Positions 8,395 through 12,935 of a DNA stretch of 12,935 nt are shown here, piece after piece. Position numbers and translations under genes: made by a program. This DNA comes from an uncultured Roseburia sp. (GTDB taxonomy: Bacteria; Bacillota; Clostridia; Lachnospirales; Lachnospiraceae), in contig CAMENQ010000028.1 of NCBI GenBank assembly GCA_945928585.1, forward strand, positions 1 through 12,935. The letters are read 5' to 3'. Below the pieces are notes generated by a model. That model saw only the letters and a list, made by a program, of their open reading frames with translations. It did not search any database and had not been told where the DNA came from. Within the stretch, counting starts at the first letter, position 1, and each line of letters opens with the position of its first letter.

Positions 8395-9363
8395 TTGAAA
8401 CTATATTTTGCCCCCCTCGAGGGAATAACAGGGTACATATATAGAAATGCCTACAGAGATGTTATTGAAGAAGGCAGCCATTTAATAGACAAATATTTTT
8501 CGCCGTTCATTTCACCGGGTGTTAATCAGCCGTTGTCGCGAAAGGAAATAAGGGATATTCTTCCTGAAAATAACAAAAACATCTGCCTTATACCACAGCT
8601 TCTCGGATGCAGGGCAGAGGACATACTTCTTGGCATAAAGGCAATAAAGGAGCTTGGATATAATGAGGTAAATATAAATCTTGGCTGTCCGTCAGGAACT
8701 GTAGTTGCAAAGAAAAAGGGCTCGGGACTTTTGGCTTATACAGAAGACCTTGATGAGTTTTTATATAAAATATATGAAAAAGCAGATATTAAAATATCCG
8801 TAAAGACACGCATAGGAAAAAACAGTCCTGATGAGTTTTACGAAATAATGGACATATATAATAAATATCCTATGGAAGAGCTGATAATCCATCCAAGAAT
8901 TCAGACGGATTTTTATAAAAACACTCCCAATATGGAAATGTTTAATTATGCCAAAGCCAATAGTAAAAACAGGTTGTGTTATAACGGGGATATAATATGT
9001 GCAGAAAATTATAAAAACATAGTTGAAAAATATACAGGAAAGGCTAAACCGGCCTCACTGGTGGAATCCATAATGATAGGCAGAGGATTTATAAGAAATC
9101 CAATGCTGATATATGAGATAAAATCCGGTGAAACCAAGGATGTAGAGTTATCGGAACATAAGAAAAAACTGAAAAGGTTTCACGACAGACTCCTTGCTGA
9201 TTATACGGAGGAAATGTCGGGAGAAAGACCGGTGCTGTTTAAGATGAAGGAGCTGTGGTCATATATGGGAGATATGTTTCCAGACAGTGAAAAACTCCTT
9301 AAAAAGCTTAGAAAAACGGAAAGTTTGGAAAAGTATAAGGCTATAGTTGGGGAAATTTTGTAA
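8395..9363 (+). CDS. tRNA-dihydrouridine synthase (Dus family, divergent)
   Basis: A 322-residue flavoenzyme predicted to reduce uridine to dihydrouridine in tRNA using FMN and NADPH. It opens with the Dus N terminus (YFAPLEGITG) and has the active-site loop NINLGCPSGTV with catalytic C98, the basic follow-up KKKGSGLL, K137/R139 in VKTRIG, H166/R168 in IHPRIQ, the NGDI phosphate loop (197-200) and MIGRGFIRNP (227-236). These cover the FMN-binding barrel, with a helical tRNA-binding C-terminal domain from about 245. Length is normal. It looks unlike typical DusB, so the modified tRNA position is left open. The TTG start at 8395 is supported by AGGAGG at 8381-8386. The structured leader upstream may regulate it. 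Confidence 0.92.
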   Translation: MKLYFAPLEGITGYIYRNAYRDVIEEGSHLIDKYFSPFISPGVNQPLSRKEIRDILPENNKNICLIPQLLGCRAEDILLGIKAIKELGYNEVNINLGCPSGTVVAKKKGSGLLAYTEDLDEFLYKIYEKADIKISVKTRIGKNSPDEFYEIMDIYNKYPMEELIIHPRIQTDFYKNTPNMEMFNYAKANSKNRLCYNGDIICAENYKNIVEKYTGKAKPASLVESIMIGRGFIRNPMLIYEIKSGETKDVELSEHKKKLKRFHDRLLADYTEEMSGERPVLFKMKELWSYMGDMFPDSEKLLKKLRKTESLEKYKAIVGEIL

Positions 9364-9425
9364 GGGAAAAACGTACATAAACAAGTTCCCTCCTTTGTTT
9401 CTGTTATCGGACTGCCTATCCTGAT

Positions 9426-9452
9426 TACAGAATAAAAGAATACAGAATAAAA
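9426..9452 (+). repeat. Short direct repeat in the gap between Dus and LysM-GH18 genes
   Basis: TACAGAATAAAA occurs at 9426-9437 and again at 9441-9452, a 15-base period. A further ACAGAAT lies at 9481-9487. The rest of the 137-base gap holds only weak hairpins, GGGAA (9364-9368) with TTCCC (9386-9390) and CTGTTATC (9401-9408) with GATTACAG (9423-9430). Neither is followed by a good T-run. No function is assigned. Confidence 0.4.
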
Positions 9453-9500
9453 AATTTATGCATGCCATATATTATTTTGAACAGAATGTACAGGTGACAT

Positions 9501-10271
9501 ATGGATATATATATAGTAGCAGAGGGAGATACAGTGGATAGTATAGCCGAAGGATATGGTATTACGGCAGAAAGCCTTATATTTGTTAATCAGCTTGTAT
9601 ATCCATACAGGCTTGCAGTCGGTCAGGCACTTTTAATATTTCCACAGGGACAGGATAACAATGGTACAGAAAAGAAGGAAATAACCGTTAATGGTTATGC
9701 TTACCCATTTATAAATAGCTGGACACTCAGACAGACATTGCCATATCTTACGGATTTGTCTGTCTTTTCTTATGGCTTTACAATGGAGGGAAAATTGTTG
9801 TATCCTGCTCTTCCAGAAGAATGGATGATAAATATGAGCCGTGAATTTGGAACAAGACCCATACTTACCCTGACACCCTTTGGACCGGACGGAAATTTTA
9901 ACAATCAGCTTATTCACAGTGTAGTGAGAAATCCATCATATTCTGCAGCACTTATTGAGGATTTGTTAAGAGTAATGCGGCAAAAGGGATATATGGGAAT
10001 GGATATAGACTTTGAGTATATTCTGGCGGAGGACAGGGATTATTTTACTGAATTTGTAAGAAATGTTACGGAGACTATGAATGATAATGGTTTTACCGTA
10101 TCAGTGGCACTTGCACCGAAAACCTCTGCATCACAGCAGGGATTATTATATGAAGGGAAAGATTATAGGGCTCTTGGAGAAGCGGCAAATTCAGTGCTGC
10201 TTATGACGTATGAGTGGGGGTATACATATTACCGTAGTTGTTATACAGTTAAAAAATATCGCGTATTTTAG
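9501..10271 (+). CDS. LysM-GH18 peptidoglycan hydrolase of YaaH/SleL type, 3' end replaced by element insertion
   Basis: The protein starts with one LysM domain (about 3-48, YIVAEGDTVDSIAEGYG to LLIFP), which binds peptidoglycan. A glycoside hydrolase 18 barrel begins near residue 60 and has the catalytic motif D168-I-D170-F-E172. The combination is that of YaaH/SleL-type proteins, which act on spore cortex in Bacillus and relatives. Family likeness runs to YEWGYTY (237-243, ending at 10229). The following 13 residues (YRSCYTVKKYRVF) do not resemble the Gly-Pro-Pro continuation expected there, and the frame stops at 256, so I estimate roughly 120 or more residues of barrel are missing. The last 23 bases overlap the convergent recombinase gene. 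It is probably inactive while the element is in place. The ATG at 9501 has AGGTGA at 9492-9497. Confidence 0.88.
   Translation: MDIYIVAEGDTVDSIAEGYGITAESLIFVNQLVYPYRLAVGQALLIFPQGQDNNGTEKKEITVNGYAYPFINSWTLRQTLPYLTDLSVFSYGFTMEGKLLYPALPEEWMINMSREFGTRPILTLTPFGPDGNFNNQLIHSVVRNPSYSAALIEDLLRVMRQKGYMGMDIDFEYILAEDRDYFTEFVRNVTETMNDNGFTVSVALAPKTSASQQGLLYEGKDYRALGEAANSVLLMTYEWGYTYYRSCYTVKKYRVF
10220..10246. other. Candidate attachment site (left element junction)
   Basis: A 27-base imperfect palindrome centred on C10233. The outer arms are GTATA (10220-10224) and TATAC (10242-10246), with TACCGTA at the centre (10230-10236). It spans the point where the GH18 reading frame loses family similarity (after 10229) and ends three bases before the recombinase stop codon. 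Large serine recombinases act on short imperfect palindromes of this kind, often next to their own gene. The exact crossover dinucleotide cannot be fixed without the other junction. Confidence 0.55.
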
Positions 10272-11844
10272 GCATTATCTGCAATTCAAAATTTGCATTA
10301 TCACCATTTCCTTTGGTATTTCGTTCCGTTTTCAGGTAATCTACTCTCTTTAAAACACTTTTGAGCAATTTATTCTTTGCCTCTGCATTTTCCATGGAGT
10401 AATATGTTTCCATCAACTGGTTAACCTTAGGAATAAATTCTTCAAACATATTCTGCTCTGCAAGAATAGAATTATATTCCTGCTCAGATTCAAAAATAGA
10501 CTTTTTTAAGGAAGATATGTCACCGGTAAGCTTTGAGCTGCGTTCTTTAAAAATTTCAGGAGTATAAACCCCCTGTTCAACCAATGTATAAGCTTTATCC
10601 AACTGTTTTTGAACAGAAACAAGCTGTGATTTCAATGAATTTATAATTTCCTTCTTAAGAGAAAGTTCGGAAGAAAAATGGATAACCTCTTTATTGGTTT
10701 TCCATGCTAATTCATTTGAAGTAGTCCACTCTTTTAATGACTCAAGTACCTTTGCCTCTATTAATTCAATCGGAGCCGATATATTGTCACAATATCTGTT
10801 AGGACATTTCATAACATAATATGCTTTTTTTGTATTTGAAAACGTGCGTGTCATCATGGTACCGCATTTTTTGCAATAAACTAATCCGGTAAGTGGATTC
10901 ATAAGAACTTTGTTTGACGGAGCAGTGCTGTGTACATTTGATTTTAAGATTTTACCGGCACGCATAAAAGTAACATCATCAATTATTGGGGCGTGTAAGC
11001 CGTCAATAATCATACAGGAGCCGTCTTTTACCCTGCGTTCCGTAATCTGTCCATCCACTATGTTTTTATGTGTTTTCTCCCATTGCCAACGGACTTTCCC
11101 AATATATGTAGGATTTACAAGCATATCCTTTATACTTGAATGTGACCAAAACTTACCGGAACGTGGCTTTATTCCCATAGAATCAAGTTCCTTAGCAATA
11201 AGGGACATTCCTATAGGTTGTCTTGAACCATCAGGAAGCAGCTTTCCATTTACATAGAGGTCGAATATAAGGCGAACTATAGTTGCTTCTTCATCCACAA
11301 TCTGTAAAGTCCATCCTTTGCCATTTTTTATTTTGACACGCTCATATCCATATGGAGCTGTTGAGGCAATATATTTACCTTCACTAACAGATGCGATTCT
11401 GCCACGCTGAATACGTCTGTTGATAGTTTTATACTCACGTCGTGACATAAAAAGACCGAACTCAAAGTATTCTTCGTCATATTCGTTATTAGGATCATAT
11501 ATTTTCAAAGGAGTAATTATCTTAGTATTTGTAGTTTTAAACACGGAGGCTATATATCCCTGGTCCATTGTGTCACCACGGGCCAGACGCTCTACTTCGA
11601 CAACGAGCACTCCGGTATATTCACCGCTGCTTAAAAGGTGTATCATCTTTTGAATTTCAGGCCTTGCAGCAATGGTTTCGCCGGAGACCACTTCTTTAAA
11701 GATTCTCTCTATGTATAAATTATGTTTTTCTGCATATTCGGTAAGCAGCTTCTCATGCCTTGCCAGTGTTTCGCCGGCACCCTGCATTTCAGCTTCCTTG
11801 TCAGCCCTGCTTTTACGAAGATACATTAAGTATTTTTCAGCCAT
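10249..11844 (-). CDS. Large serine recombinase (site-specific integrase)
   Basis: A 531-residue recombinase that would integrate and excise its element through a covalent phosphoserine link. The N-terminal resolvase catalytic domain has R10 and nucleophile S12 in YLRKSRAD, R61 in ARPEIQ, and R86/R89 in VERLARGDT. The recombinase domain (about 155-300) includes STAPYGYERV and MLVNPTYIGKVRW. A zinc ribbon follows with C324-x2-C327 and C347-x4-C352, then a coiled coil of about 390-465, as usual for directionality control in this family. Length is typical and no frameshift is seen. On the - strand AAGGAG (plus 11855-11860) lies 10 bases before the ATG. The stop abuts the candidate att site, and a - strand terminator upstream insulates the gene from read-through. 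Confidence 0.96.
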   Translation of the reverse strand: MAEKYLMYLRKSRADKEAEMQGAGETLARHEKLLTEYAEKHNLYIERIFKEVVSGETIAARPEIQKMIHLLSSGEYTGVLVVEVERLARGDTMDQGYIASVFKTTNTKIITPLKIYDPNNEYDEEYFEFGLFMSRREYKTINRRIQRGRIASVSEGKYIASTAPYGYERVKIKNGKGWTLQIVDEEATIVRLIFDLYVNGKLLPDGSRQPIGMSLIAKELDSMGIKPRSGKFWSHSSIKDMLVNPTYIGKVRWQWEKTHKNIVDGQITERRVKDGSCMIIDGLHAPIIDDVTFMRAGKILKSNVHSTAPSNKVLMNPLTGLVYCKKCGTMMTRTFSNTKKAYYVMKCPNRYCDNISAPIELIEAKVLESLKEWTTSNELAWKTNKEVIHFSSELSLKKEIINSLKSQLVSVQKQLDKAYTLVEQGVYTPEIFKERSSKLTGDISSLKKSIFESEQEYNSILAEQNMFEEFIPKVNQLMETYYSMENAEAKNKLLKSVLKRVDYLKTERNTKGNGDNANFELQIMPKIRDIF

Positions 11845-11874
11845 AGTTATGTCACTCCTTTATAAATAAGTATG

Positions 11875-11898
11875 AAAAAAGGGTGTAAAAAAACACCT
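11875..11898 (-). terminator. Minus-strand terminator upstream of the recombinase gene
   Basis: Read on the - strand, AGGTGT (plus 11893-11898) and ACACCC (plus 11881-11886) form a 6-base stem, including one wobble, around a T-rich loop. A run of six T follows (plus 11875-11880). It should stop transcription coming from the Abi-like gene before the recombinase, which then needs its own promoter in the short remaining leader. Confidence 0.65.
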
Positions 11899-11903
11899 GT
11901 TCC

Positions 11904-11932
11904 TTGTAAAACCGATGCTTAGATGGTACAAT
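11904..11932 (+). promoter_or_regulatory. Sigma-70-type promoter for the candidate small RNA
   Basis: TTGTAA at 11904-11909 and TACAAT at 11927-11932 are separated by exactly 17 bases. Both hexamers differ little from TTGACA and TATAAT. The predicted start is near 11939-11940. It points away from the recombinase and towards the 3' end of the Abi-like gene, where the only downstream object is a terminator about 45-70 bases away. Confidence 0.55.
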
Positions 11933-11939
11933 ATAGCTT

Positions 11940-12016
11940 GTCTAGGGCTGGTGTATCATCTAAGATGGTAGATTAGCTATGAGGGTGCATCTGTTGGTAG
12001 CGGATGCACCTTTTTT
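11940..12016 (+). ncRNA. Candidate small RNA convergent with the AbiF-like gene (possible RNA antitoxin)
   Basis: A predicted 75-80-base transcript running from the promoter's expected start to a strong terminator. It has no credible coding content: the longest ATG frame (11979, 14 codons) lacks a ribosome site and runs through the terminator. The 5' part has ATCATCTAAGATGGT, able to fold as a small hairpin. TCTA (11941-11944) pairs with TAGA (11969-11972), and including bases from 11933 the pairing extends to about 12 base pairs, ATAGCTTGTCTA with TAGATTAGCTAT (11969-11980). The 3' end is the GGTGCATC/GATGCACC hairpin. The terminator T-run ends 4 bases from the Abi-like stop codon. AbiF-family HEPN proteins are reported to be accompanied by a conserved RNA antitoxin, so this is inferred to be its RNA partner. 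A transcript of the same structured region on the - strand is an alternative. Confidence 0.5.
11984..12016 (+). terminator. Intrinsic terminator of the candidate small RNA
   Basis: A perfect 8-base stem, GGTGCATC (11984-11991) with GATGCACC (12003-12010), has an 11-base loop and is followed directly by six T (12011-12016) and then GTTTT. The T-run is on the + strand only, so it terminates + transcripts and not those leaving the convergent Abi-like gene. Confidence 0.85.
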
Positions 12017-12019
12017 GTT

Positions 12020-12934
12020 TTAGAGTAACTTTTGTTTGATACAACGTTTACACGGAATGAGTTCAATATCAATAGCTTTTTCGAGCGGTATTTCAACAGC
12101 TTTTTTAATTCCGCTACAGTGAGGTATCCTATGATATTTATTGCTGTTGCTTGATATGTATACAATTTTTTGAGTTACAATGTTTATATTGAGTATCTGA
12201 CCTAAATAGGTTACATCTTGAGGAAACTGATGACAATGTCTTTCCAATTCTTGACATAATGCAGAATTTAATCGGTCAAAAGGGTTTTGATAGTTAAATA
12301 AACTTAGTAAAAAAAGTAACTGACTAAATCCACGGGTTTGAGGGGCAGAATTAGAATTGAAAATGTCATCAAATCTAAGTTTATATTTACTATTGTGATT
12401 ATAAATTCGACCACCATGAGCAGCAATGTTCCTATAGTCCAGACATATATACAATGTATCCATCATTAGTTTGCATATGGCATCATTATAAAGTTCTAAT
12501 TCATCAGCATTATACAACTGATTAATCATTTGTATTTTTTGTTCTTCTTTAAACAAATCAATAAAGTTGACAATGGTACTAAAATAAATACTTTTAAATA
12601 ATATCCAAGGAGGGACGGCACCATAATTGCTATTATAGTGGTGAATCGGATTTTTATCGGTGTCCAATGTTTTCCTTAAGGTATCTAAGATACCAGACAA
12701 TGTAAAACGTTGTTTACGTTTCTTTTTGTTTTGATAATTTCTGTATGCTAAATAGTCATCTTGATGTGTACCGAATGATTTAGCAACAACACTAGCAGCA
12801 ATTTCCTTAATGTGTTCTTCAAGGTCTTGCATAGAAGCCATAACTGCATTACGGAGGTTTTTATCTAACATATATAGAGAACATATCTGTTCAAAAGATA
12901 CTCCGGATCGGTAGCTTATATTGGTTCCTGAATT
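12020..12934 (-). CDS. AbiF-like (Abi_2 family) HEPN protein with C-terminal His/Cys module (5' partial)
   Basis: Probably a HEPN-type RNase acting in abortive infection or as a toxin. The ATG at 12871 is internal: the frame is open to the window edge and the upstream codons read YRSGVSFEQICSLY, continuing the Abi_2 pattern before LDKNLRNAV, so at least 304 residues are encoded and the N terminus is missing. Numbering from that Met, the Abi_2-like core includes NPIHHYNSNYGAVPPWILF (74-92) and the HEPN motif R147-N-I-A-A-H152 followed by GGRIYN. The last 50 residues form a separate module with YH247-x4-C252 and PC274-x2-C277, resembling small metal-binding tails in some nucleases. The gene is convergent with the candidate small RNA, and its 3' end lies about 175 bases from the recombinase start. 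Confidence 0.82.
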   Translation of the reverse strand, partial: NSGTNISYRSGVSFEQICSLYMLDKNLRNAVMASMQDLEEHIKEIAASVVAKSFGTHQDDYLAYRNYQNKKKRKQRFTLSGILDTLRKTLDTDKNPIHHYNSNYGAVPPWILFKSIYFSTIVNFIDLFKEEQKIQMINQLYNADELELYNDAICKLMMDTLYICLDYRNIAAHGGRIYNHNSKYKLRFDDIFNSNSAPQTRGFSQLLFLLSLFNYQNPFDRLNSALCQELERHCHQFPQDVTYLGQILNINIVTQKIVYISSNSNKYHRIPHCSGIKKAVEIPLEKAIDIELIPCKRCIKQKLL

Positions 12935-12935
12935 A

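Follow-up and report, generated by a model that had tools for sequence, protein, structure and literature searches.

What does a short RNA do when it is encoded convergently between an abortive-infection-type gene and the recombinase gene of a mobile element? This question is raised by a stretch of 12,935 nucleotides from an uncultured Roseburia sp. (the window), which constitutes one complete contig of a draft genome (G000:C28). Its right end carries, on the minus strand, a gene for an Abi_2 protein and, downstream of it on the same strand, a large serine recombinase gene (10249..11844); a predicted RNA on the plus strand, here called RNA2, lies between them. An initial annotation, made from the letters alone, had proposed this RNA as the partner of the Abi protein. 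We lean, on balance, towards a different arrangement, in which the element would carry two separate RNA devices, namely a leader RNA (R1) serving the Abi gene and RNA2 as an attenuator of the recombinase. Both the RNA and the AbiF relative noted in the earlier reading are genuine, but the link drawn between them was wrong, and RNA2 appears to be the more novel part, as a putative family of antisense RNAs in integrase leaders.

The RNA2 family and its integrase neighbours

The promoter described in the initial annotation, TTGTAA-17-TACAAT, is present on the plus strand at 11904..11932 (TTGTAA at 11904-11909, a 17-base spacer, TACAAT at 11927-11932). RNA2 itself, a predicted transcript of ~78 nt (11939..12016, plus strand) whose start is placed 7 nt past the -10 box, would be antisense to the recombinase leader and would end in a hairpin and intrinsic terminator (11981-12013). 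The perfect 8-bp stem claimed for this terminator was recovered (GGTGCATC at 11984-11991 and GATGCACC at 12003-12010, followed by T6), and a scan lengthened it to 15 pairs within 11981-12013. The unit exceeds chance: folding of the 82-nt stretch 11937-12018 gave -37.5 kcal/mol (z -6.35, equalled by 0/200 shuffles), and the combination of a promoter and a strong terminator downstream, as defined in our own script, occurred in 0/500 dinucleotide shuffles of 11845-12022. Promoter-like sites alone are unremarkable, with 13 in 9000-12935 against 16.4 expected. No Rfam match overlapped RNA2 in the window, in L033, L034 and L036, or in 12 further loci.

With no Abi gene nearby, DNA resembling 11921-11948 was found upstream of a tyrosine integrase gene in G088 and of a serine recombinase gene in G014. 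A training set of 18 RNA2 loci was assembled from regions upstream of recombinase relatives and from gaps between Abi and integrase genes, and was selected for promoter and terminator, both of which are accordingly present in 18/18; the -10 columns are invariant or nearly so in these 18 sequences, which were gathered partly by promoter presence. Their terminator covaries, with changes on both sides in 6 of 11 pairs. The resulting R2 model is based on sequence only, as the alignment yielded no common pairs for a structure-bearing model. It matches the window at 11904-12013 (E 1.3e-8; the window belongs to the training set) and, at E <= 0.01, found 94 matches spread over 61 of 200 genomes from the same bacterial family. 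We fetched 30 loci, one per genome, as the top-scoring of these 94 matches, and excluded ten that overlapped training loci or the window, leaving 20 held-out loci, none of which duplicates a training sequence (the best BLAST alignment spans 133 bases at 80%).

A serine or tyrosine integrase is the next gene opposite RNA2 in 27 of the 30 loci (assigned by BLAST and Pfam, and for L101 by the recombinase-upstream set), and the next sense gene is an integrase in 17/20 held-out loci. The held-out misses are L121, with an NYN-type gene named by eye, L124, which reaches a contig end, and L127, with a short open reading frame (ORF) and no Pfam match. The -10 box is clear in 19/20 new loci, the exception again being L124 at its contig end, and L116, for instance, shows the integrase, an inverted repeat of 23 pairs and a leader terminator (-7.3) together. 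Outside the family, where 149 genomes were searched, each of the four non-self matches likewise lies before an integrase; the match in L161 covers the terminator part only. Comparison among loci thus establishes the family, at the level of sequence, together with its link to integrases. RNA2 appears widespread in this bacterial family and is predicted in a small number of genomes from other families of the phylum, which we infer to be Bacillota.

The family also extends to viral contigs. Of 20 contigs containing the exact 29-base RNA2 terminator, 18 have an integrase, a count that includes weak tblastn matches in L138 (E 3e-6) and L149 (15 residues); L139 comprises only 113 bases and L151 has no integrase. 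A search of viral contigs for the exact promoter pattern gave no match. In Dorea phage DO134P1 the order is NYN gene, RNA2, serine recombinase, and the promoter pattern matches its -10 region, with no -35 box. The RNA2 region of L105 matches this phage and, with 18% cover, MT836489.1, and that of L111 had no match in phages.

The genes preceding RNA2 are diverse. RNA2 occupies the gap between Abi and integrase in 7 of 9 Abi loci with an integrase next (not in L050, and L005 is gapless). An Abi gene lies upstream of RNA2 in 4/30 loci, all of them training loci or the window, and in 0/20 held-out loci, where the upstream gene was checked with Pfam in 18 and by BLAST to Uma2 in L117 and L127. Other genes at this position encode Uma2, BRO, Fic, helix-turn-helix (HTH) proteins, an M78 peptidase, a HicB-like antitoxin, domains of unknown function (DUFs), or products with no Pfam match. 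PADLOC was applied to four chosen proteins: P0001, a 99%-identical protein used as a stand-in for the window's Abi, which matched the AbiD model, and the products of the genes before RNA2 in L102, L105 and L111, which matched PDC-S03 (Uma2), PDC-S13 (BRO; also a type I specificity model) and SoFic. The genes before RNA2 are a possible defence hotspot.

Several observations were made beside RNA2. Some matches, in part incomplete, occur in pairs ~1-1.3 kb apart (G057:C37 at 6337/7368, G195:C10 at 70865/72111, G140:C27 at 26230/27284 and G059:C16 at 27861/28999), as if two units bracketed one cargo gene. A further unit with a strong promoter and an RNA adjoins RNA2 in L034, L039 and L051; in L039 it includes, on the other strand, a short hydrophobic holin-like peptide, and by eye it resembles a type I toxin-antitoxin system. 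Past the RNA2 terminator, L079 and L094 share a third conserved RNA-like stretch, noted by eye on the integrase strand (AACCGTA...TACGGTTGAAAGGCACTC).

Leader anatomy and candidate antisense attenuation

Upstream of the integrase, its own strand carries a hairpin and then a T run in 16/18 training loci and in 16/20 new loci, against 9/200 shuffles. Such a leader terminator was found for 10/11 recombinases with RNA2 and for 3/12 without; of the 23 loci in the recombinase-upstream set, both groups omit L081, whose unit is doubtful, and L096, which has a promoter only. A leader terminator is present in 31/36 RNA2 loci. The RNA2 promoter is in turn spanned by an inverted repeat in 18/18 training loci (9-27 pairs; z -1.3 to -6.0, with z <= -2.0 in 17); in the 20 new loci, at least 9 pairs span the promoter in 18, and z <= -2 is reached in only 12. 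In 15/18 loci the 5′ arm of the leader terminator touches an arm of this repeat. Promoter, terminators, inverted repeat and position of RNA2 are thus features that the comparison among loci demonstrates, each as predicted from the DNA. In the window, arm Y of the repeat (CTTAGATGGTAC, 11918..11929, plus strand; z -2.8) overlaps the RNA2 -10 box, and sequence and repeat analysis places a further inverted-repeat stretch at 11953..11964 (GTATCATCTAAG, plus strand). The leader terminator of the recombinase strand (11887..11918, minus strand; -6.3 kcal/mol) consists of a hairpin at 11918-11893 and a T run, ~42 bases before the start codon, and 7 of the 10 bases of its 5′ arm fall in Y. The structure scan also found a second leader hairpin with a T run (GGTGTTTTTTTACACC, 11897-11882, minus strand).

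Folding predictions were made for 31 leaders. The mean predicted probability of the terminator was 0.46 for the leader alone and 0.91 when the stretch complementary to RNA2 was blocked; the rise was at least 0.2 in 16/31 leaders and an equal fall occurred in none. For the window leader the values were 0.64 and 0.95, a weak prediction of a switch, whereas leaders such as those of L034 and L051 show a clear one. The stop codon of the upstream sense gene lies no more than 30 nt from the RNA2 end in 18/29 loci, and transcription of that gene therefore probably reads through into the integrase. In G150, as read from the sequence, the recombinase start overlaps the stop codon of the Abi gene.

These features are consistent with antisense attenuation, the likeliest of several regulatory readings of RNA2. 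A transcript entering from the Abi side would produce a leader with arms Z′, Y′ and X′ before the recombinase start. Pairing of Z′ with Y′ would form an antiterminator, and pairing of X′ with Y′ the terminator. RNA2, initiating inside the inverted repeat, would pair with Z′ and release Y′ for X′, and transcription would then halt before the recombinase. Read-through from the cargo gene would consequently fail to switch on the recombinase unless RNA2 were scarce. We infer the transcription of RNA2, its pairing, the attenuation and its biological role from this arrangement.

Several observations weigh against attenuation. Blocking a competitor necessarily favours the terminator, and special anti-termination relative to leaders with shuffled upstream sequence was predicted in only 11/31 leaders (10 without L089, whose terminator is barely predicted). 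The window leader is not among the specially anti-terminated ones, since 29/40 shuffles were equally low, and 16/31 leader terminators are likely even alone. The terminator is absent in 5/36 RNA2 loci (L047, L077, L102, L121 and L126), and in L036, L085 and L092 the best terminator arm shares only 0-2 bases with the repeat (1 or 2 in L092 and L085). The repeat contains somewhat more wobble pairs when read on the RNA2 strand (33/406) than when read on the leader strand (17/371), a lean opposite to that of a purely leader-strand function. Finally, no integrase promoter was found.

RNA2 could control the integrase in another way, through transcriptional collision, through cleavage of the duplex by RNase III, or as a shared bidirectional terminator that shields the integrase from cargo transcription. 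This option, which we consider possible though doubtful, would fit the short distance between the RNA2 end and the upstream stop codon as well as the terminators that are likely without any blocking, but it leaves unexplained both the terminator arm lying within the inverted repeat and the leaders that stay terminator-free until blocked. Alternatively, the repeat might act as a DNA feature, such as the operator of a dimeric regulator, a cruciform or a single-strand hairpin, with RNA2 as a by-product of the promoter. Palindromes are typical operators and the repeat spans the promoter in every training locus; however, its sequence is highly variable among loci while pairing is kept, unlike a common operator, and the RNA2 terminator covaries too, so that this explanation seems improbable. 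For a single-strand DNA promoter, the geometry presumably has the wrong direction.

The role proposed by the initial annotation, that of an RNA antitoxin for the window's Abi protein, is very improbable. RNA2 does adjoin the Abi gene, is structured, has a promoter and a terminator of its own, and is found both after Abi genes and in most of the Abi-integrase gaps examined. The initial annotation had named a lack of conservation of the interval with the Abi family as one of the outcomes that would refute the pairing, and this was the outcome: no held-out locus has Abi before RNA2, and RNA2 precedes integrases where Abi is lacking. The Abi subfamily, moreover, has its own conserved RNA upstream (see below), and the window gave no match to RF03085 (PbAbiF-AbiFr) at E <= 1. 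The antitoxin role was rejected on this neighbourhood evidence. Hardly credible, in our view, is a trans-acting RNA that travels with integrases and is directed at other targets in the host or a rival phage; the short length, variable hairpin and unpaired 5′ end of RNA2 would suit such a role, yet its position before the integrase and the leader terminator are kept across serine and tyrosine integrases.

Antisense attenuation of the recombinase would resemble plasmid copy control, of which pT181 RNAI/II-repC is a related case. The closer likeness is to RNAIII and repR of pIP501, where RNAIII causes early termination of the repR leader, according to passages of PMC4981023; shared features are an antisense promoter within the target leader, a short RNA and termination before the target gene. 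In contrast, the predicted RNA2 has its promoter in an inverted repeat, and its target would be an integrase or serine recombinase and not a replication protein. RNA2 may thus work like plasmid antisense attenuation but is no member of that group, because its target is not a replication initiator gene. Among the publications listed by our literature searches, none showed an antisense RNA within the leader of an integrase gene, which does not prove that no such report exists. A broader and more tentative proposal is that an antisense integrase switch, diverse in sequence and conserved in architecture across serine and tyrosine enzymes, is common to the phages and integrative elements of Bacillota. 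It would allow a defence gene carried just upstream of the integrase to be transcribed without excision, and could act as a diffusible, cross-element brake on copy number or superinfection.

R1 and the Abi protein

The Abi subfamily has a different RNA of its own. In 25 of 27 related loci, a promoter and R1 lie immediately 5′ of the Abi gene on the same strand; the loci comprise 24 from one search and 3 from another, two pairs of them have identical leaders, and the exceptions are L005, which reaches a contig end, and L060, a gene fragment. The order is promoter (mostly of the TTGACAAG-17-TATAAT kind), hairpin, terminator, ribosome site and start codon. Among 23 distinct sequences, compensatory changes occur in 9 of 16 pairs, and the covariation score is reached by 0/500 shuffles. 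R1 matched no Rfam family in the 21 R1 loci scanned (of 25), and RF03085 itself had no match in 5 R1-bearing loci (E <= 0.5) or in 16 more (gathering score); conversely, the R1 model had no match in 8 RF03085 loci. The model was applied to 64 sources, 26 of them loci of distant Abi relatives (L007-L032), and matched only L004, L006 and L092, the last at the same place as L006, and weakly L079 (two matches, E 0.09 and 0.62). An extension of R1 beyond the Abi subfamily was dropped, as L007-L032 gave no matches.

R1 is rare, with matches in 6/200 genomes of the family, one of them weak. Abi is present at two of the five convincing matches (L130 and L133) and absent from the locus at L129 (G015), L131 (G040) and L132 (G169); R1 adjoins RNA2 and an integrase in L129 and lies directly 5′ of a serine recombinase in L132. 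R1 in these three loci may represent solitary antitoxin-like RNAs.

Passages of PMC12373285 describe RNA partners for AbiF-type proteins, and R1 is the probable partner of the window's Abi, where it would lie past the contig end. Counting against this assignment, R1 of this exact element is deduced from the extension of the 99%-identical P0001 through R1. The arrangement is the one that parts of PMC12373285 report for RCd22-AbiF of Clostridioides difficile phi027, in which a leader RNA with its promoter, hairpin and terminator stands immediately before the gene in the same orientation; with this system and PbAbiF-AbiFr the protein also shares the Abi_2/HEPN domain, the R-N-x3-H motif and the PbAbiF fold. 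R1 differs from both in its lack of an RF03085 match and in having a single covarying hairpin with a terminator instead of two abiF motifs. Unlike PbAbiF, the window subfamily has a C-terminal CxxC module outside the alignment, and its toxin gene can have a recombinase gene downstream.

The Abi gene of the window (12020..12934, minus strand) comprises the last 304 codons of an ORF that the contig end cuts, so that its 5′ end lies beyond the window. Its assignment to Abi_2 and the R-N-x3-H motif, both already recognised in the initial annotation, hold: the ORF matches PF07751 (E 3.8e-26; 92.9 bits against a cut-off of 25.6 bits), and in the motif (RNIAAH, ~12416..12433, minus strand) R244, N245 and H249 of P0001 are invariant in 38 sequences. 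The same 38 sequences share H344, C349, C371 and C374 of a C-terminal H/C...CxxC module (12041..12133, minus strand), which lies outside the alignment to 8vz6, ending at model residue 329; the module is possibly metal-binding, and we take it to resemble Ada-type zinc sites. The protein was found to have a PbAbiF-like fold. These results support its assignment as an AbiF-type HEPN toxin on a serine-recombinase element, and an RNA may neutralise its toxicity by binding to it. Of the initial proposal of a divergent AbiF-RNA system, the AbiF HEPN protein and the reality of the RNA unit therefore stand, whereas the convergent RNA as partner does not.

P0001 has ~25 additional N-terminal residues translated across R1; this extension aligns by tblastn to the leaders of relatives and is disordered in the model (pLDDT < 50). 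In P0001, P0027 and P0099 alike, the gene calls are lengthened upstream across the leader RNA, and these extended starts are probable annotation errors. Named relatives of the Abi protein are mostly from Lachnospiraceae, and a peptide-pattern search for it in viral contigs found none. Query residues 253-302 alone give short matches in several other genomes.

The interrupted gene and the meaning of RNA2

The recombinase has Resolvase, Recombinase and Zn_ribbon_recom domains, as expected from the initial annotation of a serine-recombinase element, and is the proposed target of RNA2. The element splits a LysM/glycosyl hydrolase 18 (GH18) gene (9501..10271, plus strand; PF00704 and PF01476) at ~10227-10233, that is, at about codon 244; in G218, of the same genus, an intact frame of 396 amino acids is 79% identical up to residue 244. 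The window interval 11850-12935 had no match in phages and plasmids. By analogy, and given that the interrupted gene presumably serves spores, the element could be an intervening element of the sporulation type. It differs from skin, SP-beta in spsM and gin in that a spore role of the LysM/GH18 gene and a developmental excision, which such elements undergo in the mother cell, are both putative. The likeness lies in a serine-recombinase element that splits the gene adjoining the recombinase, as described in parts of PMC4191935 and PMC5595907.

For this AbiF subfamily, R1 represents a candidate RNA partner outside RF03085. If the proposed role of RNA2 is true, a widespread RNA family, unmatched in Rfam in the loci scanned, would time the integration and exit of mobile elements by applying the logic of plasmid copy control to a recombinase. 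RNA2 may also mark a cargo slot, and could therefore help to find defence genes.
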